A DNA stretch of 64,000 bases from Nymphaea colorata (lineage: Eukaryota > Streptophyta > Magnoliopsida > Nymphaeales > Nymphaeaceae), in contig NC_045147.1 in NCBI RefSeq assembly GCF_008831285.2, positions 10,473,427 to 10,537,426 of the forward strand. The letters run 5' to 3'. The notes beneath the pieces were generated by a model that made no database searches, had not been told where the DNA came from, and saw only the letters and a program-made list of their open reading frames with translations. How positions within the stretch are numbered: position 1 is the stretch's first letter; each line of letters opens with the position of its first letter. Shown here one piece after another: positions 11,541-63,705 of the stretch. Both the position numbers and the translations under genes were made by a program.

Positions 11541-12097
<557 letters not shown>

Positions 12098-21957: not shown

Positions 21958-24900
21958 TAGTGCATAGATGGCTGTAATGGAGTAGGTGTTGTCATGATTC
22001 GTTGTGTCTTAATGAATAAAGAAAGCAATGGAATTCGATGAAGTCCTATCTTTTGATCTTTTAGCTGGTTTAATAGAAATTCATGTGGGCCACGTGGGGA
22101 CTATTAGAATTACCTGATGGATTTGGTTACATTACTGAAGCCACTTTTTTATTCTGAAACAGGTTTTTATCTGTGAGCAAAAGCTTTATTCAAGAGCTCA
22201 GTTGAATCAACACATGAGTACTGGTGACTCTGAAGTAGATGGCAGTGAAAGCGATAGGGGTGGATTTTCAGGTCACCCTATGTGTGATTTCTGCAGAAAA
22301 AGATTTTATGGGGATAACGAGCTGTACTTGCATATGTCTACGGAACATTATACTTGCCATATATGTCAAAGGTTCACTCTTTGTTCTGTAAATTCATGGC
22401 TTTTTTTTGCTTATTTCATTTTTTAACAAAATTTTCCCCTTTGAAACTTCAGAATGCATCCAGGGCAGTATGACTACTATAAAAACTATGATGATTTGGA
22501 GGCAAGTGTTTGAATATTTGAAGTTACATATCTTTGGTTTTCTTAATTTTTTCTGAGCTTTTGTCTGAGATGCTGAGGTCTTAATATCCTCAAAAATCTC
22601 TTTCTTATTAATTTACAGATGCATTTTCGAAGAGAGCATTTTCTTTGTGAAGATGATGCATGCCTTGAGAAGAAATTTGTTGTGTTTGCGTCTGAGTCTG
22701 AAATGAAGGTATGTTTCTTATCTTTATCTTGATGGTATTTTAAGCATGCAATGCTATATCTTGCTGAGGATACATGTTGTATCACAAGATATTTGTACTC
22801 AGTCATCTTAATAGTGCGCACTGATTATCTTGTATCTTTCTTTCATTCTAGAGGCATAATGCTCTTGAACATGGTGGTCGTATGTCTCGTTCCAAGCGCA
22901 ATGCAGTACTTCAGGTGTGTACGTGGTTCATGAGAACTGATCCAACAGATGTTTAGTTTGTTATTTGCTTGGAATTCTGATATTATTGGATAAGCATAAT
23001 CATAGTTGGTTTTCTTTTAAGCAATGAGAATTTTTATGCTTTTGGATATAGATACTTGTCTCGAGAAAATTTAACTTTAAATCACATTGAGAAGCTAGTT
23101 TACTATGAAGTGGCCTCCCTGTGTTATGGTGCTTCCCTTGGAGGTATGATACTGTTTCATAAGGAAAGAGCCCTTTCAGTCCACTGTGTCAAATTCCTCA
23201 CGGATAGCCTGTTACCCTCTAGGAAAGGAGGAACTAAACATCAAGGCAATATGTAGCCTTCCATACTTTTCAGTGTAATAACAGCTAGACTCCCAATGTT
23301 TTGCCAAAAGTGCTGGGCCGCACCCTTTTTTCCTATTTTTGTCAAAAAGGGCCTGAAAAGTATTCCCCTTTGGCTACTTCTTTACTTATTTTCTAGTCAA
23401 AAATTGGATGAGGGGAAAACTTTTGTATAAACTAAACTACCTCCTTTTTTAGGACTGCTCCTCATTTAATTAAACATGAAAAAAGTCTTGTTTTTTTCTA
23501 CCAATCAAACATGGTGAAACTTTGCTAGACAAAAAAAATTGTCTAGAAAAGTTTTGCTATGCAAAATTTTTGCCTCTGAATAATTGGTCTGGAAAGAGAA
23601 CATCAGAGGAAATTCTAGTAGGAGCTCTGTTACTTGTGGAGCTGTTTATGTCCAAGACTAGAAGGCTGTGGTTTCTTGTTATTATTCCTTGTGTAATAAC
23701 TATCGGGGAACTCTTTAAAAAATTCATTTGTTTCTGAGATTATGGTGGCATTTTTCTTTCAGATACCAACTAGCTTCCGCTACCGACGAAGTAACGAACA
23801 TGACTTTCGGCGAAGAAGAGGTCGAGGATACATGTCTGATCAGCAACTTCCAGTTGCTAGTGAAGCAAGCATGGAAATGAGAAACCTGGAAAATGCACTT
23901 GTTCAATCATCTGCTGCACAGGCAGGGCCAAATAATATCGAAGCAGAAGAAAGTTTAGTTATACCGTTTGAGTTGTTGGCAACCTCATCTGATGTCGAAT
24001 CACAACTGGTATCTTCCAGGTATCTTGAGGCCCTCAACCAAAGATCAAGGAATGGAGCTCTTGAAGAGTCTTCCTTCCCTCCACTCCCTGCAGTGCAAGC
24101 TAATAATGTACAAAACCAAAAAATGTCAACTCGGAGTTCCATGGCTGCTCGTCTTCGCAATAAAGGACGTGTAACCGTTCTGAACTCTGCGCAGAGAAGA
24201 CCACCTATGGTTTCTTCGGCTACTACACCAGTTCTGAGTTCTGCTCCGGCAAGGACATCGGTGAATCCTGGACATGCATCATCTAATTTTTCTGGTTCCT
24301 CATGGGAATCAAGTGGCGGTGGTAGTTCCAGCCATTTGGTAGCCACAACAAAAATTGCTAGAGCACCTGCAAATTCTTCGGTGTCTCCTGTTTCACTGCA
24401 GTCTTCCATCTCTAGCAACCAAATGCCTCAAAGTAGTGGGCCCTTGCTTGAAGTGGAGGACATACAAGCTGCTAACAGATCTTTGGTGGAGAAGATTCGT
24501 GCTGGTTTGGATTTCAATGTGGAGAAATATGCTTCGTTCAGAGAAATATCTGCTCAATACCGGCAAGGTCAGATTGATACAAAGAGTTATTTGACGCATG
24601 TCCAGCAGTTTGGTTTATCTCATCTGGTTCTTGAACTTGCACGCCTCTGTCCTGACCCACACAAACAGAGGGAGCTTTTGGATGTCTATAATGCCAGTTT
24701 GAAGAATAATGGGATGCCTCAAGAAGCTGGTCAGGGGACAAAAAAACAGAGTTCAGGGTATGGTGGTAGATCTGTTAAGGGGAAGGCTCCAGTAATTAAT
24801 GAGGCTGGGAACAGTAGTAACTCACAAAGTTTGTTAGCAGATGGTTTTATTGAAACAGTTAGGAAATTACAGTCCTCTATGCCACAAGAAGAGGGAGCTG

Positions 24901-25397
24901 AGGTGCTGACAAAAGATGGATATCGATCTTCCAAAGCAAAGGAAAAGATTGTGCCAGTTGAATGTCGAATAGGGCCCAGTACCGTAAATGAGCAGTCTAG
25001 TGTTCCTAGCAGACAAGGTGATTCTTTCCGGGCAGATCAACTGCGTGCTTCAGATACTGGTGATAAGTGGTCGTGTAGTTTATGTACTCTGTTAAATGAG
25101 AGTATGAACACAAGATGTTCTGCATGTGGCATGGCAAAAGGTGCATCAACTTCAAATTCTGGTGATACAGGAACAAGCAAGGGAAAGCGGAAAACTTCAA
25201 AATTTCATAGAGTTCGACTTGGTGATGGTTCATCCGCAGCACTTCTTGATCTGCGGCAGCCAGAACATTCTCCAAGGCACCAGGCGGAGACTGTGTCTGA
25301 TAAAGGTGGTGGCAAAAACCTTCCTGTTCGTGGGGTTTGGAGGAATGGTGGAGGACAGAGGCTGATGGCTACGACTCTGAAACAACCGTCCAAATGA
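15720..25397 (+). CDS. HEL2: ZNF598/Hel2-type RING and zinc-finger E3 ubiquitin ligase, 7 exons, 840 aa
   Basis: Exons 15720-15887, 16659-16967, 22163-22371, 22453-22501, 22619-22708, 22852-22914 and 23763-25397 join in phase. Residues 1-56 form a C3HC4 RING (CAVC, CGHREVCSTC, RCCIC). Residues about 90-290 hold C2H2-type fingers (CSIC, MCDLC, CDFC, YTCHIC, HFLCEDDAC) and then an arginine-rich stretch (FRRRRGRGY). The long C-terminal part is low complexity with a conserved helical block (about 535-610, SLVEKIRAGLDF) and a C2-C2 finger at about 730-757 (WSCSLC, RCSAC) like a RanBP2-type finger. By family, Hel2/ZNF598 detects collided ribosomes and ubiquitinates small-subunit proteins to start ribosome-associated quality control; the plant role is inferred. 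Exon 4 ends at a GC donor. Intron 2 is 5.2 kb and filled with repeats. The start fits family N-termini (MDD.CAVC). Confidence 0.93.
17730..18221 (+). other. Unexplained 163-codon open frame inside intron 2
   Basis: Begins with ATG and runs to TGA. The second half (FVGPCSFAKWGNGVGLG ... RLEKDEKDHLNDSDRLLLKY) looks more protein-like than its surroundings, while the first half is hydrophobic and AT-rich. I recognise no family. It could be an old transposon coding relic or chance. Confidence 0.15.
18261..18968. mobile_element. Complete non-autonomous hAT-like element, 708 bp
   Basis: The ends are CAATGTTGTA and TACAACACTG (imperfect terminal inverted repeats), flanked by an exact 8 bp direct repeat CTCTTAGT (18253-18260 and 18969-18976), the target duplication size of the hAT superfamily. 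Both subterminal regions are packed with GTATCG / CGATAC words, plausible transposase-binding arrays. Read on the minus strand, about 18650-18580 encodes a short acidic run (EDENEEEDGDEDE) ending at a stop, as at the C-terminus of some plant hAT transposases; this may be a remnant of the parent. No transposase core is present. Confidence 0.9.
21888..21956. repeat. (CA)n(GA)n compound microsatellite
   Basis: About 35 bp of CA units followed by about 34 bp of GA units, in intron 2 of the ZNF598-like gene. Confidence 0.95.
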
Positions 25398-28989: not shown

Positions 28990-31851
28990 TTACCAGTATT
29001 CACCACAAGAACAGACTCCATTCTTGAATGAGTGAAATCTATTTCCATCTCTAATAATGATATCTCTGTCAACCAAAATGCTGACAAATCTTATGAAAGA
29101 ATGACAGTCACTACAGATGCGCAAATTCTTAATTACACGAATGGCAGCTGAATGTGGCGCATGAAGCAAGCCAAAGGCAAGTGCAAGCCTTTCACTATGA
29201 TACGAGTTCTGCTTTCTGTCGGTACCCTCATATCCCAACTTCCTCACATCCACATTCAATTTCTCCAACTTCGCATGCATCTCAGCTGTCTGGGGATGAA
29301 ACCTGTCACCAGATGTGAAATGATACAGCTTATTCCTTATCTCTATCCAGCTTTGTCCAGGATTTTTCTTTAAACCTCTCTGTTTCAACATTAATCGCAC
29401 GCTGTTAGCAGAATCCGACTTTGCAGCATCATCATACATGTTAGCCAGCAACACATAAGTTGCTGGGTCAGTGGGATCTAACTCGAGAGCGCGGCCTGCT
29501 GCATACTCTCCTAAACCTACATTCTTATGCAATTTACAGGAACTCAATAAAGTTTTATATAAAAGTGCATCAGGTCTGAAAGGCATGCTTTCTGTAAGCT
29601 CAGCTGCAGATTCAAGAAACCCAGCACGGCCAAGAAGATCAACCATGCATACATAATGATCCAACGTCGCTGTGACCTTGTGAATTTCATGCATCTGCTT
29701 GAAAATTTGACGACCTCTCTCAACCAATCCACCATGACTGCAAGCATATAGAGCCAACAAAAAGGTAACATCATCAGGGTTCAGACCTACCAGTTGCATC
29801 TCTTCAAAACAATGAAGGGCACTGGCGAACTGCCCATTTGAGGCCATACCAGCCATCAATGCATTCCATGATACAACATTTGGATTGGGGATCAATGTAA
29901 ACATTCTCTGGCTATCCCTCGTGTTTCCACACTTGCCATACATGTCAACCAGGCTGTTTCCTACAGAAATCCAGTGCTCGAACCCTGTCTTTACAGCACA
30001 GCAGTGGATTTGCTTTCCTGCCTCCAGTGCTGGCAAACCAGCAGAAGCAGATAAAAAGGTTGCTAAGCAAAAATTATCTACTCGGACGTTATCATCTAGC
30101 AAAACATGCATAACATCGAGAGCCTCTAAATGATGACCCAAATGGTTGTTTCCTTTTGCCAAGCTTGTATAAGTAACCACATCTCTATCTGCCATTGTCT
30201 TGGTAATACTCCAAGCATCCTCCATCATCCCGAATCTTGCATAAACATCAACTAGTGAATTTCCAACAGCAATATCTGCATCAGCACCACTCTTGATTAT
30301 GCAACCATGAAACCTTCCCACTTGGTCTAGTTTGCTGGAGCAAGCCTTAAGCAAGCTAGCAAACGTGGATGAAGTTGCCTGAATTCCAGCTGCTTGCATA
30401 TAATTAAATGCTTGAACAGCTTCACGTTCTTGGTTATGTATGGCGAAGCCAGTAATGAGAGATGTCCACAAGATGACGTCAGGTGTAGGTACTTCTTTGA
30501 AAAGAGATAAAGCATCTTCAGATCTCAAGCATTTCATGTACATGTCAACAAGTGCATTCACAACAGAAGCATTCTCTTGTAGGCCTACCTTCCATACACG
30601 TGAATGGATTAGCATTCCAAACTCCAGTAGTGGAATGCATGAGCAGGCCTTAAGGATGCCTGCATAAGTGTAGGAATTTGGGGATACGCGAGCAGCTCCC
30701 ATGCTACAAAAAGCATCTATTGCTTCAACAAAGTTTTCAGCTTGTGTCAGCCCAGCAATCACAGTTGTCCACAAGAATGTGTCAGATTCTGGTGTTTGAT
30801 TCAAAACTTTGTTAGCTTCTTCAATCATTCCAAATTTCAAGTACGTATCAATCAGAGCAGTTTTTAAAACCAAATTAAGTTTAATGCCCAGAAGAACTAT
30901 ATGAGCATGAACTGATTTAACACACTTGCGACCAAGAGAAAATGATGCCGGTAGCAGATTGACAAAAGTGAACTCATTTGGTGATATTCCCCATTCTTCC
31001 ATTTGAAGATACAACCTCAATGCCGAACTGGGGTCCTGTTCCTGAATAAATGCAGCAATCATGGTTGTACAACTGATCACATCATGAAATTGCATTTCCA
31101 AGAAAACATCATATGCCTCCACAAATTTCTCACACTTCGAATAGAAGTCAATCAAGGCACTTCCCAGAACTGTATTTGACACAAATCCACACTTTGTCAT
31201 CCATGCATGAATGTGCCTTCCATGCTCCGATGCCCCAGCAGAAGTGCAAGCACGCAAAGCACTTGCAAAAGTGAATTTGTTGGGGATCAAGCCAGAGAAA
31301 ACCATCATATCAAATAAACCAATAGCCTTCTCATTCTCTCCACACTTGACGTAAGCAGATATCATCCCAGTCCATGAAACTACATCCTTTTTAGGCATTT
31401 CATCAAACAATTTACTCGCATGGACGATGTCAAAGCATTTCACATACAGTGAAAGCAGATTATTGTTCAAAAACAGATCGTGCTCAAGCCCGAGCTTTGT
31501 AATAAGGCCATGTACAGCAACACCCACTTTCAGGGCCCTTGAATTGCATATTGAGATAAACCATAAGCAGTGTTCCCTAGAAACATAAGGAGAATGTAGA
31601 TTGCCGTTATAATGCAAAGCTGGGGAATGTTCAAAATTCTGTAATCTGCCCTTTCCATTAAATACCAGCCGCAGGTCTTGGTTGTTGGGGCTACCACTAG
31701 AAATGGAACATGGGTTTTGGTCACTAAGATGATTACTATAAGAAACAACGGTTAGCAGCCTTCTGGAATTGTTCTTACCCAATGAAAGTAGCCACAAAGG
31801 GAAGAAGGGCAACAGTTTGGGGCAACACGTATGAAATAGGATGTGACTCAT
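28990..31851 (-). CDS. PLS-class DYW pentatricopeptide repeat protein, intronless, 953 aa
   Basis: The stop is TAA (plus-strand 28990-28992). The upstream-most codon of the open frame is TTG, so I chose the first ATG (31849-31851), giving MSHILFHTCCPKLLPFF, a basic and hydrophobic start suited to organelle import. From about residue 80, triplets of P, L and S repeats run through most of the protein (SLYVKC, DVVSWTGMISAYVKCG, NSLVDMYGKCGN, NVVSWNALMAG), then E and E+ motifs (LYKTLLSSCKLHKN, GQSWIEI) and a DYW deaminase-like domain with HSE, CSDCH and the terminal CSCGEYW. These proteins mostly carry out C-to-U editing in chloroplasts or mitochondria; HSE supplies the catalytic glutamate and CSDC zinc ligands. 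It resembles Arabidopsis At5g52850 in layout (from memory). The last three residues are EYW, a tolerated variant. Confidence 0.95.
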   Translation of the reverse strand: MSHILFHTCCPKLLPFFPLWLLSLGKNNSRRLLTVVSYSNHLSDQNPCSISSGSPNNQDLRLVFNGKGRLQNFEHSPALHYNGNLHSPYVSREHCLWFISICNSRALKVGVAVHGLITKLGLEHDLFLNNNLLSLYVKCFDIVHASKLFDEMPKKDVVSWTGMISAYVKCGENEKAIGLFDMMVFSGLIPNKFTFASALRACTSAGASEHGRHIHAWMTKCGFVSNTVLGSALIDFYSKCEKFVEAYDVFLEMQFHDVISCTTMIAAFIQEQDPSSALRLYLQMEEWGISPNEFTFVNLLPASFSLGRKCVKSVHAHIVLLGIKLNLVLKTALIDTYLKFGMIEEANKVLNQTPESDTFLWTTVIAGLTQAENFVEAIDAFCSMGAARVSPNSYTYAGILKACSCIPLLEFGMLIHSRVWKVGLQENASVVNALVDMYMKCLRSEDALSLFKEVPTPDVILWTSLITGFAIHNQEREAVQAFNYMQAAGIQATSSTFASLLKACSSKLDQVGRFHGCIIKSGADADIAVGNSLVDVYARFGMMEDAWSITKTMADRDVVTYTSLAKGNNHLGHHLEALDVMHVLLDDNVRVDNFCLATFLSASAGLPALEAGKQIHCCAVKTGFEHWISVGNSLVDMYGKCGNTRDSQRMFTLIPNPNVVSWNALMAGMASNGQFASALHCFEEMQLVGLNPDDVTFLLALYACSHGGLVERGRQIFKQMHEIHKVTATLDHYVCMVDLLGRAGFLESAAELTESMPFRPDALLYKTLLSSCKLHKNVGLGEYAAGRALELDPTDPATYVLLANMYDDAAKSDSANSVRLMLKQRGLKKNPGQSWIEIRNKLYHFTSGDRFHPQTAEMHAKLEKLNVDVRKLGYEGTDRKQNSYHSERLALAFGLLHAPHSAAIRVIKNLRICSDCHSFIRFVSILVDRDIIIRDGNRFHSFKNGVCSCGEYW

Positions 31852-33799
31852 GCTAGACAGTAAACGAAGATGCAAGTTCTAACTTCTCTCCATATTGATG
31901 TCACTGACTCGATTTCGTGCAGTGGTCAGGCCATGGCTGTCAGCAGTGCGGGCATTCATGAAATAAGAACAACAGTATTTGCCCAAGTAACCAGAAAAGG
32001 TCGTGAAGGAACAAAAAGCAGCGATGCCATTTTCACCGATTGCCGAGTCGCGAGTACCCGACGGGTTTTCGAGCATGTGACTCAAGTCGGGCTGGCCCGA
32101 TCCTACTTCAGCTGGGCCCGATTCAATATGTATTACAAAATTATATTTAATATATTTTCATATACTTTTTATAAATACTTTATTCATTTAGTTTTTAGAA
32201 TCAGGTTGAGCCCGGGCTAAGTCAAGTCAGCAAAAATGTCCAGCCCTGCTTAAAAGGACTTGTATTATCACGACGGGCACACTAGCGAAGCCAGAAATTT
32301 TGGTTGAAGAAAGCACTAATTCAATAACTTTAATGTTTTTTTAGAGGAATTATTAATGTAAAGATAAATAAACTTTGTAACTGGTGTACCAACTGCACAC
32401 ACCAGCCAACATGTGGCTCGTAGGGATTACCGTCTCAGAAAAACGAAATAATAAACGCATAAAATGGTTCAATTGACACGATAAGTTGAGGTATGAGATT
32501 TTTTAAAACTGTGCATTTCTTTCTCAATTTGAAGGTTAAGTATTCAAGAGCATCTTCCGTCTGCTTGTTTCGTTATCCAATGAGGTCCTGGGAGTTCATG
32601 TTTCTAGCTCTTGGTTCACTGTTCAGTCTTGGTTAAGCCTAGTAAGTAATAGCCATCATGATGCATAGGTGTTTGCTCTTGAACAAAAGCATCGATTCCT
32701 TGAAAAAGGTGTTACAGTGGGACGGAGGTCCATTCTGACCCAGTTGCTCGGAGTAGGTCGAATCAGACCCAGTCAAGTCACAACAAAACATCTCTCTCTC
32801 CCTCTGTTCAATGTGGTCTTTCCGTTCGTTTCTCGATGCAGCTTCTTGCTTTGAAATTATGACCCACAAGTGCTCCAACTTCAAGCTACTCAACGCAAAG
32901 CAGGTTAGGAACAAATTAACGTGAAACACCAGGAGGACATTGGGGTGTAGACACTTATTCCTCCTGGTAAATGTTTCATATTAACGTGCATGTACTGGTA
33001 GAGTTTCATGTTAAAAGTGCATCCACTTGAATTCCACCACTATGGGAGGCATCCTTGTAAACAGCATGGTTGAATGCTCAGAGGTTTACGCTGCCTGCAA
33101 GCAACAAAATCGCTTGACCCAAGTGTCGCTTCCCGTATAATAAACAGAACAAGAAGCTCTTCCCTTTCTTTAACTCAAAAGTTCTTAGGTCCCAGATTGA
33201 TGGAATTCTTCTTGCAAAACTAAATTCTACAGGTCTGTAAAGGAGAGCGTCCTGAACGTCATGGAACCTGATGTATGCTAACATCGATTAGAAAACCACC
33301 AAAGTGAAAACAGAAGGCCAAGATACCTTTTTAGAAATAATACTCAAAAGAAAAAAGGAAACGGAAACCTGAAAGTCCTACAATATCTTTTTACTTCTTC
33401 AAGTTTTAGATTAGGTGAATTCTGAAACAAGACACAATTAAAGCAGAGAAGACTAACGGAAAACCTCTTATTGCTCAATTTAGAAACAAACAAGAGAACA
33501 GAAGAGTTAACACTATAAAGAACCATACACAATTCTATGACGTCCATTATTTTTCTGTTAGGGGAAGTATGTATATTTATGACTAACATGATTTTTTTCA
33601 ACATTATTTGTGTATAGTTCTGATACAGAAGATTGAGGGTGCAGTTTTAACCATTTTTTATGTGGAACCTAATCTGCACAAGTCTGATCTTACAGATTGT
33701 TCCTGTTATGCAGGTATTGATTACTAGGGTAACGCCCAGCATTTAATATACAATGGACCACCCATGAACACATTTTTACAGAACTTATGAAATGAATCA
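31852..33799. other. Spacer upstream of DYW PPR and downstream of ATG8
   Basis: It holds the promoter side of the minus-strand PPR gene and the 3' UTR of ATG8. An element remnant is at about 32070-32230 and a small imperfect hairpin at 32928-32968 (ACCAGGAGGA / TCCTCCTGGT). No gene seen. Confidence 0.45.
32070..32230. mobile_element. Remnant of a GGGCC-ended, AT-cored TIR-like element
   Basis: GGGCTGGCCCGA and GGGCCCGATTC on the left and GAGCCCGGGCTAAG on the right enclose an AT-rich core. The same design occurs at about 40990-41225. No target duplication was recognised. Confidence 0.4.
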
Positions 33800-42075: not shown

Positions 42076-48265
<6,190 letters not shown>

Positions 48266-54723: not shown

Positions 54724-57700
54724 TCATCGATCAACACCGTCCATGAATATCTTGTTATAAATCAGCTGCACTGCAAACAAAGTCGTACAATTAATATTCT
54801 AGTTACTAAGAACTCCATTAGAGAAATTAACTTTTAATTTTACAGCTAAATGATTCTTCTGTAGTAGGACAACCTTGAACTCCGGGGATGTTGGGCTGGT
54901 CAGCAAGTAGATGACTGAAGGCAGTTAAATCACCTGGGCTGCTTCAACACGAAAAGGATATACTATTATGGGCATGTCAAGAAGAAACCAGTAACCTTAA
55001 GCATTTATAACGTCTGATGTCATGGCAAAGAATTAGAATCAATTCGAATGCCATACGTGAGGGATTTATGCAGATAACTTGTGGCCCAATTCACAACTGG
55101 CTTCTTGAGGACACTGTAGTTTTCACCAGTAACTTACGTGGAGTTTGCATTGAAGAATAGGGGGGGCACAAGAAAAAGGGTTTTCAAAGTAAATATCAAA
55201 AAATAGCATGAGAAACAAAAATTGGAAAGCTGCACAACCACTTTAGGAAAGCAAAGGTTGTCTCCATAAACCTCGAAGCAAGGAAAGCAAGGTTCCAACA
55301 CAGACAAGTAGGGCAAAGAAGCAGGAAACTGTAATTGGATCAGAAGATTTTGAAAAATAACCTCCTCAGGTGCTCCAAAAGGCAGAACTGAATACAGGGA
55401 CATTATCAGCAAGAATATACTGAGGTAATGTATCCGACAATAGGGGAAAGGTGCAAGTCTGCAATTAGGGCAGGAAGGAATGAAGTAAATATGAGAATTG
55501 CTTGAGGCTAAAGTAGCAAAATCCTCACTTTCTTAGGGCATGTAAAGGGATCGTCAAACATTTCAACACTCTTGCTAAAGATCCTAACATACAATGAATC
55601 ATGATTATGGATATAATGTCACATCGACAAACAACCAACCTTGAATTCCAATTTAGGGCTAAAACCACAGATGACTTCAGGTTGTACCTGTAACGAAAAT
55701 CTGTTTAGTATTCACCAAGAATAAAATTGACATAATAACAACAAAATCAGCAAAAGCAATAAAAAAGTTCAGGAATTTAGACCAACACTTAGTTAATGAT
55801 GTCAACAGTTAGCTAAGGTTTTGCTAAGCTTCCCTCTGTAATACGTTTCTAGTGCCCAAAGGTTGGGCATTTGGGAACCAGCATGATGTTGGCATCCTCC
55901 CAAAATGACACCACTCATGCTATTTTCAGTTTTGTCAGTGCTGACAGCTGACATAGCAGAAAACCTATTAACCAACAGGATCCTCCAAGTTTAACATTAT
56001 CAGCATAAAAGGGTAGGTGTGATGCCCAAATTCGCAACTAACAGCAATCACAATGTATAACATCAAAAGCTCAAGTTTCTTAGGAAGTGTATGTGAGAAA
56101 CGTGATTAGTTTCACCAGCAGAACACACATTTAAAGTGGTTTGGGGAGTTCACTTATCTGAAATCAACATAAGAAACTTATGATGCCTGGCTGTTATTTG
56201 CAGTAATTGCAGTTACTGATGTCAATGTTGGGACTTGGGCATCGAATTATTAGTTTTTTCTTACAGAAGAGTGAAGGACGTAAGAACCCATATTGCACAT
56301 GCCAAATTTGGTGTGCGTTTGTAAATATGAAAGACTTATTGGTTCGAGTATGCGAAAGCTGTTAGTATCAGCAGTACAGTGTAGATTCTATAACAAAAGG
56401 ACAGGAAAGAGAGAAAGAGAGAGAGAGTTGAAAACGAATTCAACTAAATGGAACCCATACCAAGAGTAATGGATGCCAAAAAACCACAACTCAAAGAGAA
56501 AAAGGCAGTCTAAAACTAGAAATAAGGTCCAAAGGCCAGAATGCCTTTACATGGAGACATCCATCCAAAGAGAAAAAAAGGGACTGAGAAGTCTTAAGGC
56601 TGTCCACAAAAGGAAATATTATTGTACATGAACCAGATGTGCCATCAAAAACAGCAAAGCCACATCCGCCACAGAAAATGCCAGCGTTTGGAGTGATGAA
56701 TGACCAAGGGACCAAAAGGGATATCCCATGCAAAGGGAGAAAAAGATAGAGAGACCTAACCTTCACAAAAGAATGGTGAGGGAGGCCTAAGAAGATCCAC
56801 CAAAAGAGGTGAAAAAGACAGAGAAGGGGATGGAATGGAAGAAAGTGCAACACGACCCATTAGTGCTACTGCTAAGATGGAATTTTACCCAATAAAAACA
56901 CTCCTTCTCTTGGAGCACATATATTTAAAATGCTAGGAGAACTTATTAAGAAGTGAAGGCAATAATATTATTCTGACACGTGAGAATATAGTTGAATATC
57001 AATATAATGGAATTATTACCATGGGTCCACACGGTTTTGCTTATCACCGAATGTGTAACCAATACTGAAAGGCACGCCTAACTTAATATTTTAGATGTGG
57101 TCATGAACTTCTTTCCCTTCACCTAAAGCTCCACCATCCATTTAGGAAGAATATACAGCATGATCACCAATGCTGGTATTTCTAAGATATTGCCAAACAG
57201 CTACAAATGATATTATCAGGGAAATATCACAACATTTTCAAAGTATAGCCAGCAAATAAAATATGAAATTACAACAATATCACAACATTTTCCCTATGAG
57301 GAAAAAAAAACTTTGTTTTTATTTTACATATTTTAAGTGCATACAGTTCATTTTTATTTTTCTATAACTTAAAAAATGAAAGTTCATGAATATTCCTGTA
57401 ACAAATTAGCAATAATTTCATAATTTTGTATTTTCTCTTTCATTCTTTTTACTTTCAAAATTTTGAATTCCAAAAACTTTCCAAAAAAATCAGCTTTTAG
57501 AAAATCAAGAAACACCATTCCATAAATTGCCGAGAGGCAAGAATGATAATCGTAGATGATACATTGATACGTTCGACCTGGCCTCTGTATATCAGGCTAT
57601 GTGCCATAGAATGAGACATTCTTAATGTGCCATCAAGTGGTAACATCCATATGACAAGCCCTAAATTTTAATAGGATGCAGAATGCTTGGAACTGCATTA

Positions 57701-59315
57701 AGGATCAGCCTTCCAGATTTTAGTAAAAGGTCGAGAATAACAAGCACAAAGTCCTTGGACCACTTTCTCACAAAACAAAGCTCCAACAACCACACGATAA
57801 AAAAATATTACAATTCAAAAGCATAGTACAAGAAATAAACAAACTATAAATGGGAATATTAACAGAAAAAAAAAATTACATTATTTTGCTAATACCATAT
57901 GGAAAACATGAAAGGTTTACTGACAAAATCTTACTCGAACAGATGCATTTCATGAATGGTTTTCAGACCCTCCAAGCAATCCATTATACTAGGGCCAGCT
58001 CCAACCCGAGCCTCCATTTGTTCTGAGCTTACTTTTTTGCACTCTTCTTTTAGAAGAAAATAAGCATCTTGAGAGATCTTCTCAAGGGCCTTTACAATAA
58101 CAAGGAACTCCTTCCTATTCCATGAGGGCAAGAATAGCAAAGGAACAATCAAGAAAAGTCAAACAAGGAAATTTGAGAACATGTAACTGGCATCTAAAAT
58201 GAAAATGATGCATTTAAGGCACAAAAAATAGTGATGCAACTCAATCCTAAGTACCTTAAAGAAGAAATAGAAAATTAATCGTGCAGAAAATACAGGCCCC
58301 ACAGTCCCCCTTCTTCGTTGGTCTACATAAGACATGAGGATATTATATAATTATGGTCCCAATATTGCAATCGTCCAATTTCCTAGTTATTAAATCATGA
58401 ATATACATGCCTGACAATAGACGAGGAACAGTGGTGGAAAAAATTGTTAGCCTTTTCCAATGTTCAAAGTTCATTTTGGTAAGTAAGAAAAACCGCTCCC
58501 ATTGTGAAATTAGTATAAAGACAGGATGAACAATTTAATAGTACCAGCCTACTTTTTGAATTATTTACAAAATATTTGACTGATTATACATTTTTCTGAT
58601 GAACATCAAACAGATTTTTCACCGTTCCTTTTACAATGTTCAAGAGAAATACGTTCCCCTCCTTGTTTAGCTATGTAACTCAAATAGTCTTGTTCTTTTT
58701 CTGTAAAATAGTCCTCTACCTCATGTCGCCTTCCATATCTCACACACATGCACACACATAGACACTACAATGGGAAACACGCATGGTGGCATTGTACCAT
58801 TTCAATTTCTAGTGGCGCATACTCTTAACTCTGTTTGATCTAGACATCAGATGTTGTGTGTGTTTGGGAGGGGCGGGGGTGTGTGTGGATACACCACAAG
58901 TAAGGAAACGAGCATGCAAAACTTAAAAAAGGTGTATAAACTTAAGATCAAATATAGAACTTTACATTGTACCAAGCAACGCAGAGTAATTCATTTCAAA
59001 GGACTCCAACTGTTTCACCAAAAGCTCCTTCTTAATGTCCGGATTGCCGGATAGGATTCCAAAATTATTCGGATCTTGTAGAACCTATTAACTAATTCAT
59101 TAGCGGTAGTTGCAAATAATCATATGGAACTCAAAGTTAAAAAAGAAAGAAGAGCTTGATAAACAGAATATATATTTAGTTACCGGCAGTCGTCCAATGA
59201 TGGCTGATGCATTCCCAAATTGGGTGAGAAATAGGGACTGAAGTTGCTCCCATCGATCCATTTCCTCCCTGGCCCTTTTGTACTTGCTTTGATATTTCTT
59301 CATTAGCCTCTCCAT
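54724..59315 (-). CDS. Uncharacterised At5g43822-like protein, possible plant AIRIM/C1orf109 counterpart, 6 exons, 197 aa
   Basis: Minus-strand exons 59184-59315, 58966-59084, 57935-58114, 55640-55687, 54874-54941 and 54724-54770 join in phase (132, 119, 180, 48, 68, 47 nt) at GT-AG borders. The protein begins MERLMKKYQSKYKRAREEMD, is helical with likely coiled coils (MDRWEQLQSLFLTQFGNAS), then VLQDPNNFGIL, PDIKKELLVKQLESFE, GPSIMDCLEGLKTIHEMH, YNLKSSVVLALNW and a C-terminus LLADQPNIPGVQVQLIY ending DGVDR. It matches the plant family of Arabidopsis At5g43822 (from memory), whose function is unknown to me. The order of motifs also resembles human AIRIM, an AFG2-associated ribosome maturation factor; this is my inference. 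Exon 5 could start 3 bp later (NAGNAG-like CAG), dropping one serine. The start is the first ATG in the family-like frame; a 5' UTR intron is possible. Confidence 0.85.
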
Positions 59316-59794
59316 GTGGAAAAAGATAACAATATACCGGCACCGTACGGTAGCGTTTGATGGCCCCTGGAGAAGTTTTTTGGAAAGCAATTCTTATGCT
59401 AAGATTTTCCCGAAGAGAATAATATCATCAGCTTCTTGTAGAATATCATCCATCAAAGTGGGTTAAGCCCTAGGTAAATTTATGGAAAAATAATAACTTC
59501 AGAACCATCGTAATAAAAGCTTCCAGAGAAGAGGAAAATACATAAAAGAGCAGATAAAGAACAGAATTGAAGAAAACCTCTGAGTAGCCACCTTTACGTG
59601 TTCAATTTTTGCACAATCTGTGTCGGACACAGGTCATCCAACTTGTGAAGGAAAAGATGAGTCTGCAACAAATAGATTAGATGGGTATGGATAGTTTAAT
59701 AGACCAGTTGTGTGAGTAATTGCAAGGATAGTTTAATAGACCAGTTGTGTTAGTCGTTGCAAAAGTGTAGTTTAATAGAGCAGCACGCAAATGA
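59316..59794. other. Region upstream of the At5g43822-like gene
   Basis: Promoter and 5' UTR side of the minus-strand gene. Three copies of a GATAGTTTAATAGACCAGTT-like unit with a period of about 37 bp (59690, 59727, 59765) sit directly before the LTR. No other gene seen. Confidence 0.5.
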
Positions 59795-60197
59795 TGTTGG
59801 ATAGTGACCATTGAGTCATATCCTAATATCTCGTAACTGCTGGGCAGTTACAAGATTAATCAGGAAGCCTTATCTCTATCTGGCTTTTTCCCAGAAATCT
59901 CTCCCCTAACCGCCCGCTGGGCTACGGGGAAAACTAAGGAGCTGGTTATTTAAGCCCAACATCTCTTTGTTTTAGGGTTTACTGAAAATACTGTTTACCC
60001 TAGAAGAGATCCTTAGAAGGAAACCTCTGATTCAAAACTTCAACTCTTCTTCTCCTTCTCCTTCTCCTCCCTCTTCTTTTTGCTTTGCTGTTTTAACAGG
60101 GGACTGTCGCTGCATCACTTGAACTCCAGAGCCGCTGTTGAACTTACTGCGCAGATGACAACTTGCAACTTCCGCTGCCACTTCAATTGCTCCAACA
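59795..60197 (+). mobile_element. LTR of a retrotransposon, 403 bp
   Basis: It starts TGTTGGA and ends TCCAACA, the TG...CA ends with matching inverted termini expected of an LTR. It contains a TATTTAAG promoter-like motif (about 59947) and is followed one base later by a tRNA-Met-type primer-binding site. No second LTR is visible to the right, so the element is truncated or its other end lies outside the window. It sits 480 bp upstream of the At5g43822-like start codon, in opposite orientation. Confidence 0.8.
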
Positions 60198-60198
60198 G

Positions 60199-60210
60199 TG
60201 GTATCAGACC
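60199..60210 (+). other. Primer-binding site TGGTATCAGACC
   Basis: The first ten bases match the usual plant retrotransposon primer-binding site complementary to the 3' end of initiator tRNA-Met. Its position right after the LTR fixes the LTR end. Confidence 0.85.
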
Positions 60211-61654
60211 CTTCCTTGTCGAATTCCAGTAAGTGAAATTTGATCTTGATCTTCGTGGTGCCTGTGAAGATCATACTACCTGCGTGAGCATGCTAGTCGC
60301 CTGTGTATCATGCTGTTTTAAAATTTATTTCCTGAAAATAAAGCATGCTAGGTACTGATTTGAAGTGTGAAGCACGTTAGTCCTAGTTGGGTTTTGAAAC
60401 TCTCTGGTTTCTATATTAAGTTGTTTCTCCTTGTTTTTTATTCCATCTGTGAGAAACCGAGACTAGAGTCGACCATAAAACAGAGCATGCATATCTAAGT
60501 TAAGGGCTCTGTCAGGGGATTCAAACCAACTACAGGAAATAATTGTATACCAGAACCCTCATGGAGGTCTGGCCACAGAGCTTGCTGCACAAATCTCAAG
60601 TGGGAAGACTCTGCTGTCATCCTGAACTTACTGTTACACAAAACCAAAAGAAGAAGCAGTCCGAGACTTCGTCGACAGAAAGCAGAGCCTGCTCTGCTCG
60701 ACATACAACAAACTTAAAATCAGCAAACCAATAAGAGGGAGGGAAGAAAATATAGAACCTTGCTCACTGTACACCGTTTGAGAAACTGACCCAACGGATA
60801 CCTGGAAAAGATCCGGGATTCTCCCGTCTGTCGAAACCGGAGAAACAGTCACTATTTTTTTCTTTCTTTTTCTTTGTCGGACCTCAAAAATCCTCTTTTT
60901 TAAAAAACCACGACCCCACTGCCCCTGCCTTCTCTACCGACGAGCAGAAGCAGTCGACCGACAGACTGGAAACCAGTCGTCTTCCTCATGCCGGTAGCAG
61001 AGAGGCGACTTGGCTAAAGGAGGAACACAGCAATGAACCTGCAGACTTCCTCCTGTCGTTCCTCTTTGTCTGCCGGTTCATCCCTGTCTCTGCGAAACCG
61101 GAGACTGAGGAAGACGTTATTGAAGCTCCTGTTTTTGGGAGGTTGTCTTGCTCACAATGGCAGCACAGAACGAGCGAAAGCAGAGAGGGAGGGGGCTACC
61201 CTCGCGAGAGGAAAGAGGAACTCTCGAGAGGAGAGAGAGAACGAAATCGAAAAATGAGGAAAAATCGTTCGAAAAGGGTTTCTATACTCAAAGTTAAAAA
61301 ATTACAATTCAGTCCTCCATTTCGACATTATTTTCAAAAACTTTGTTACAATGTTTATAAATTAATATCGCAACGTTTTTTCTAAACATTTTTTCAAAAA
61401 GAGGTTCCGGAAAGTTATTTTCAACAAAAACGGAAGAGTTTATACGAAATTGTTAGTGATATTGCTGAAAGGGTTCCGAAACATCATTGTGCAATTTCTG
61501 CGGAAAACCGAGATTTTTTGTGTAATTATGTACTGGTACCCTTAGACTTATTAAATATTGCCAAAGAAAGGCTCTGAAATAAAACTCGAAGAGTAAAGGG
61601 AATTCACGTTGAAAATTTAACATTGAAGTTGAGATATTTGTGCATGCTTTAGGA
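60211..61654. other. Stretch after the LTR, no intact coding sequence
   Basis: Presumably internal retroelement DNA for some distance. Two related GC-richer blocks (about 60640-60700 and 60930-61000) share AGAAGCAGTC and TCGTC.TC words, and GAAACCGGAGA recurs. I found no gag or pol motif on the plus strand. Confidence 0.4.
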
Positions 61655-61943: not shown

Positions 61944-63705
61944 TCAATCATGGAGAGGAATAGACTTAAAGAAGAACATATCATCCATTTTATTGTGTTG
62001 TTTTAGGCATTGTCTTTTGCTTATTAATTTCAAGGACATTACAGTATTCGATGAAAAAGTATATTCTCCTCCTCGATAAGACCTTACAACTTTGATATAT
62101 CTTCCAAGTTGTCTTTCAATTTCAAATTTACATTCATTGAATTTCTCAAGTACTTCTGGCTTATACTTAATCAAATAAATATAGCCAAATCTTGAGAAGT
62201 CGTCAATAAATGTCATGAAGTATCCGAAAGGTCCACAGATATCAGTATGGATTATTTCTAGTAGTTCAGTGAGTACTTTAGACGAAAATGGTTTTCTTGC
62301 AATCTTTTCATATACACATGACTCGCATTTTATGAAATCATTTACGTTCATATCAAGTATTAAACTTTGTTGTGTTAGAGTTTTCATCTTTTTATGCTTA
62401 TATGGTTTAATCTTTCATACCATAAGTTTGCACTCACACTCATTGTACAGTCGAAATAAGCAGATATTGAAGTATTATTCATGTCATTAAGTTTGAACAT
62501 ATCATGTTCTTTTACGTATTTTCCATCGAACATGGTCTTTCCATGTTTTCCCACGATTACCTTCCCCGGAACAAAATAGACTTCAAAACTTTTCCCAGTC
62601 AGTGTGATAACAGACACCAGGTTTCTCCTCATGGAGGGGACATACAAAACCTCGTTAAGAACGACACTAGTAGCCCCGCAGTCGGTATGCCCCAATGCTC
62701 ATAACATCACAATATGAGTTGTTTCCCATGTAGACCTTATGAGTTCTCGGACTCAGTTCTTCCATGTGAATCACACATTCTTTTGTCACCGCGATGTGAT
62801 GAGTAGCTCCTGAATCAACCCATCATCTAGTCTGATCTCCATGCAAACAAACATTCTGACACTAAACAAATGACTTCTTTGTCTGAGTCCCCTTGTGGCA
62901 TCTTCCTGTTGTTATTGCCCTAACCATTGTTGTCTTTCTTATCTAAAAATTTTGTCCTGCAGTTCTTCCTAATATGTCTAGGTTTTTTGGATCTGTAGCA
63001 ATTCACTACAGTTCATTGAGATTTCTTAGTACCTGCAAAATTGTCCTTAAACTTGCCATCGTTCTGTTTTTTAAATTGTTTGGGTCTTACATTTACATGA
63101 TTACTAGTAGGTTTTTCCTCGACCATCATCAATTTTGCATTTTTTCTCTTAGTTAGGCGCTGTTGCTGAATAGCTAATAGTATAGGAAGCTTTTCTAAAG
63201 TCAGATTATCAAATTGAAGACTCAATGCAGTGACTGCCATATCCCATGAAGGTGGTATGCTGTTCAAAATGGTGCTGATCTACATGTTGTCAAATATGAC
63301 ATTCCCCATTACGGCTACATCTTTAGTCATGACCAACATCTTATTAACATGGTCCACTACACTGTTTGACTCTTTCATTTTATACGAATTGTATTCTTCT
63401 AATAGCAACTGTACGTGCATAGTAGTAGTAGTGTTGTATTTGGAGGAGATAGTATCAAACAGGACCTTGGTTGTTGGACAATCCTCAAATACCTTGATCA
63501 TGTCATCTTCCATGAAGGCTAACATGATGGTTTTAGCCATCAAGTCATCAATAGTAAATGACTCATATGCCCTTCGTTTCTCATCTGAAGGTTTATCTCC
63601 TACAATGGGGAATGGCTAGTTGATCACATAAACGAGTCTTTCCAAAGTCAAGGCCAACATAATCATACGCTTCCATGCATGAAAATTTGTCCCATTTAAT
63701 TTCTC
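61944..63705 (-). pseudogene. Broken Ty1/copia gag-pol relic
   Basis: Reading leftward on the minus strand: gag start-like LNGTNFHAWKRMIMLAL (about 63700-63650), the gag core with LLEEYNSYKM and VDHVNKML (63540-63280), a zinc knuckle with one altered cysteine position (CYRSKK...C, about 63003-62955), protease DSGATHH (about 62820-62796), then pre-integrase and integrase segments (LWYERLNHIS, CESCVYEK, IHTDICGPFG, FIDDFSRFGYIY, 62695-61944). The order gag-protease-integrase is that of Ty1/copia. Several stops and frame changes break it, reverse transcriptase and RNase H are absent, and no LTR of this element is visible. It cannot be functional. Confidence 0.88.

Follow-up and report, generated by a model that had tools for sequence, protein, structure and literature searches.

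A six-exon Nymphaea colorata gene of the C1orf109-like family as the probable counterpart of Arabidopsis OPENER and human AIRIM

In humans, AIRIM (C1orf109) belongs to the 55LCC complex, formed by AFG2A-AFG2B-AIRIM-CINP. Its counterpart in Arabidopsis, OPENER (OPNR, AT5G43822), was described by Wang et al. 2025, whose Dali comparisons of predicted structures matched OPNR to human C1ORF109, and OAP1 to CINP (PMC12332008). OPNR, OAP1 and OAP2 co-purify in a 1:1:1 ratio and associate with the AAA+ ATPases CIP111 and CDC48D; OPNR, OAP1 and OAP2 make up a trimer, whereas human AIRIM forms a dimer with CINP (PMC11055677, PMC12332008). Pull-down showed binding of RPL24C by Arabidopsis OPNR, and RPL24C, NOG1-1 and BUD20 became enriched on 60S fractions when members of the complex were lost, the complex being required for clearing assembly factors off pre-60S ribosomes (PMC12332008). 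The cytosolic RPL24C-YFP signal, however, fell rather than rose upon OPNR mutation, which the authors describe as opposite to their expectation, and they relied instead on NOG1-1, BUD20 and 60S proteomics (PMC12332008). At5g43822 is also listed elsewhere as OPENER, a nuclear-envelope protein that embryos need (PMC7746247).

The window analysed here, a stretch of 64,000 nt of the Nymphaea colorata genome (G000:C10:10473427-10537426, NC_045147.1), contains an AIRIM-like gene of six exons on the minus strand, running from 59315 to 54724, with all five introns bounded by GT-AG (Table 1). Its earliest in-frame ATG is at 59315, and the joined coding sequence of 591 nt, including the stop codon, has an open frame for a protein of 196 aa and 22.4 kDa. 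The initial annotation had joined the same exons by hand into a protein of 197 aa; the gene and its exon chain were confirmed, and the length is corrected to 196 aa. The motifs it had named were all found in the joined protein and in the order given, namely W22, PDIKKELLVKQL (residues 59-70), PSIMDCLEGLKTIH (125-138), YNLKSSVVLALNW (145-157) and VQLIYNKIF (182-190).

Table 1. Exons of the AIRIM-like gene of Nymphaea colorata (positions within the window)
Feature	Position	Strand	Content
Exon 1	59184..59315	-	Start codon and N-terminal helix with W22, residues 1-44; scores 31.1 bits alone against PF15011
Exon 2	58966..59084	-	PDIKKELLVKQL segment; within the joined protein aligns to AIRIM PDLKERLRRKQL
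Exon 3	57935..58114	-	Helical stretch and PSIMDCLEGLKTIH; scores 45 bits alone against PF15011
Exon 4	55640..55687	-	YNLKSSVVLALNWNS; the AIRIM alignment ends here
Exon 5	54874..54938	-	SPGDLTAFSHLLADQPNIPGVQ; splice frame links exons 4 and 6; one piece of the C9 copy is 91% identical
Exon 6	54724..54770	-	VQLIYNKIFMDGVDR and stop codon; 14-aa piece 100% identical in the C9 copy

The joined protein matches the Pfam family PF15011, "Ribosome biogenesis protein C1orf109-like", with 130.6 bits (E 6.4e-38; curated cut-off of 27 bits), the match spanning residues 7-161 and model positions 1-156 of 161. This was the only Pfam family matched up to E 1, and NCBIfam yielded no match. When exons 1-3 were scanned singly against Pfam, exons 1 and 3 each exceeded the cut-off and exon 2 had no match. 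Human AIRIM, tested with the 105 residues 61-165 of PDB 9gwj_A, also scores 130.6 bits against PF15011, which is thus common to both proteins. A phmmer search of PDB sequences up to E 10 listed two matches, both of them AIRIM chains, 9gwj_A ("AFG2-interacting ribosome maturation factor", E 0.78) and 9lgo_H ("cDNA FLJ55172", E 1), which carry an identical printed stretch in the alignment; these E-values are not significant alone, and what ties the plant protein to AIRIM is the PF15011 family model. In a Smith-Waterman comparison with the AIRIM stretch the window protein scored 63, a value that none of its 10,000 shuffled versions reached (best 61), this control being somewhat generous since the stretch had been picked by the phmmer alignment. 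In both the phmmer and the Smith-Waterman alignments the motifs PD-K-L-KQL, PS-D-LE-L-I and Y...W are collinear between the two proteins. The window protein has a tryptophan at W22, and 9lgo_H has one at residue 100, which would be W27 of AIRIM if the inter-chain offset of 73 holds there. The shared family and the collinear motifs support a sequence link between the plant protein and human AIRIM, as the initial annotation had suggested when it read the gene as a possible plant AIRIM/C1orf109 orthologue.

The initial annotation had also held that no function was known for the plant family, which is out of date, AT5G43822 being OPENER with a role in 60S maturation (PMC12332008). The AIRIM link, the plant function, the proposed mechanism and the co-immunoprecipitation of At5g43822 with AFG2/CIP111-like ATPases for which it had called were all in print in 2025, in the same article. 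The Nymphaea protein resembles Arabidopsis OPNR in size (22.4 kDa against 23 kDa; PMC12332008). Its likeness to human AIRIM lies in the Pfam family and the collinear motifs, the pairwise similarity being weak. OPNR is described as single copy in Arabidopsis (PMC12332008), whereas the Nymphaea genome has a degraded second copy in addition. Localisation, mutants and partners are known for Arabidopsis OPNR only.

Across the whole genome the PF15011 profile has two matches at E <= 0.001, both to exons of the window gene. The window gene is an intact member of the C1orf109-like family and the only PF15011-matching gene found in the genome. Of the outcomes that the initial annotation had named as counting against its reading, the lack of a profile match did not occur, and a clear plant AIRIM elsewhere was not found with this profile. 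A protein search of the genome up to E 1 gave nine matches, four to the window gene, four to contig C9 and one weak match to C1 (E 0.245). At the C9 locus (G000:C9:12485032-12486594) the matches to exon 1 are split over two frames; exons 2, 5 and 6 can still be made out, whereas exons 3 and 4 are without any alignment. The locus has three main blocks of DNA, which share 87, 94 and 92% identity with window positions 59744-58392, 57697-57584 and 55406-54400, respectively, and the similarity continues beyond the 3' end of the gene to about 53493 at 87%; together these point to a duplicated block of about 6.2 kb with internal losses. Judged from these alignments, the C9 locus is a degraded, broken second copy of the OPENER gene.

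Candidates for the partners of OPNR were also found in the same genome. A composite query for the D2 domain of AFG2-type ATPases, drawn up for this search, had its best of 47 matches at C1:1843714-1843938 (77% identity to the composite), in a frame that contains GPPGCSKT and has a first AAA+ domain in a frame upstream. Against PDB sequences, this CIP111-like exon lists AFG2A in eighth place (285.4 bits, among the best 60 of 264 matches), with VCP-like chains of archaea and CDC48A chains of plants placed higher, so the PDB rank does not single it out as AFG2-type. Another AAA+ match, at C6:3491585, was set aside as a CIP111 candidate because its frame is without the GPPGCSKT motif. A CDC48D-like query, likewise drawn up for the search, gave 83% over query positions 27-74 at C7:7956224-7956373, sixth among the 25 matches listed. 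The profile Ribosomal_L24e, to which RPL24 and RPL24C belong, has six matches in three places of the genome.

A telo box (59973) and site II words (59918, 59953) lie upstream of the start codon. Their reading as a plant promoter was dropped because the DNA from about 59793 onward is repetitive; the stretch 59793-61400, lying some 480 bases ahead of the start codon, has at least 52 genome matches (40 of 357 candidates scored). Retroelement-like frames were recognised by eye at 61944-62414, which had no match in Pfam, and at 63280-63615. On the other side, some 8 kb away from OPENER, lies a CDC48/p97-type AAA+ gene (43871-47025; AAA 165.6 bits, CDC48_2), one frame of which recurs as a 95% copy about 28 kb beyond the window (C10:10565567) and has a partial match of 83% on C12. 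A linkage of the two genes was rejected and their proximity taken as chance, since the frames are of CDC48/p97 type and the partners of OPNR are CIP111 and CDC48D. A CDC48-like fragment with an altered P-loop lies on the minus strand at 11551-11940 (77% over 47 aa to the frame 43871-44806). The window also contains a frame with a ZNF598 PAH domain (23700-25397, 84.7 bits), which suggests a ribosome quality-control ubiquitin ligase, and two long frames for PPR proteins, one at 2-1804 and one at 28990-31878 that also has a DYW deaminase domain, consistent with a land plant.

Here it is proposed that the gene is very probably OPNR, the OPENER of Nymphaea, and so corresponds to human AIRIM/C1orf109, and that its protein would act as in Arabidopsis. 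This identity is argued from the PF15011 score (130.6 bits), the place of AIRIM in the same model, the PDB list made up of AIRIM chains and the 0 of 10,000 shuffles, together with the position of the gene as the sole PF15011 gene found in the genome, the published match of OPNR to C1ORF109 and the similar masses (22.4 and 23 kDa), and also from the presence of the CIP111-like GPPGCSKT exon, the CDC48D-like exon and the three Ribosomal_L24e places. Counting against it are the AFG2A place for the CIP111-like exon (eighth, among the best 60 of 264), the fall of RPL24C-YFP in Arabidopsis and the weak direct similarity to AIRIM (phmmer E 0.78 and 1). That weak similarity, along with a comparison to Arabidopsis OPNR made through its published description, would also fit a PF15011 paralogue that does different work, with the actual plant OPNR located elsewhere in the genome; such a paralogue is improbable, because PF15011 yields no other gene (both of its matches belong to the window gene) and the remaining protein-search matches are the four of the degraded C9 copy and the weak one on C1 (E 0.245). 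The existence of a second copy means, in turn, that either one could be expendable and that the window gene itself might be the non-functional duplicate, but this is highly improbable, as all six exons of the window copy are intact, its junctions are GT-AG and its frame is open, and the damage sits in the C9 copy, with its change of frame in exon 1 and its unaligned exons 3 and 4.

As Nymphaea OPNR, the protein would work like that of Arabidopsis: the helical adaptor would present RPL24C, a placeholder, to the ATPase, and the ATPase would pull RPL24C from the cytoplasmic pre-60S particle, and this removal would allow assembly factors to be recycled and RPL24 to take its place. The published link between OPNR and C1ORF109 was made by structure (PMC12332008), whereas the Nymphaea protein is tied to C1orf109 by its Pfam family. 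It appears somewhat more probable than the contrary that plant OPNR and animal AIRIM go back to one adaptor that existed before plants and animals diverged, still recognisable by sequence, and that budding yeast lost it. In budding yeast, Drg1 touches Rlp24 directly.

The discovery is to be credited to Wang et al. 2025 (PMC12332008). What is added here is small: one further plant protein of the family together with the exons of its gene, the connection of that protein to AIRIM through a sequence family, and a second copy that is broken. For annotation, an "uncharacterised" gene can now carry a name and a function, and an AIRIM/OPENER adaptor for AFG2-type ATPases, common to plants and animals, is confirmed from raw plant sequence.
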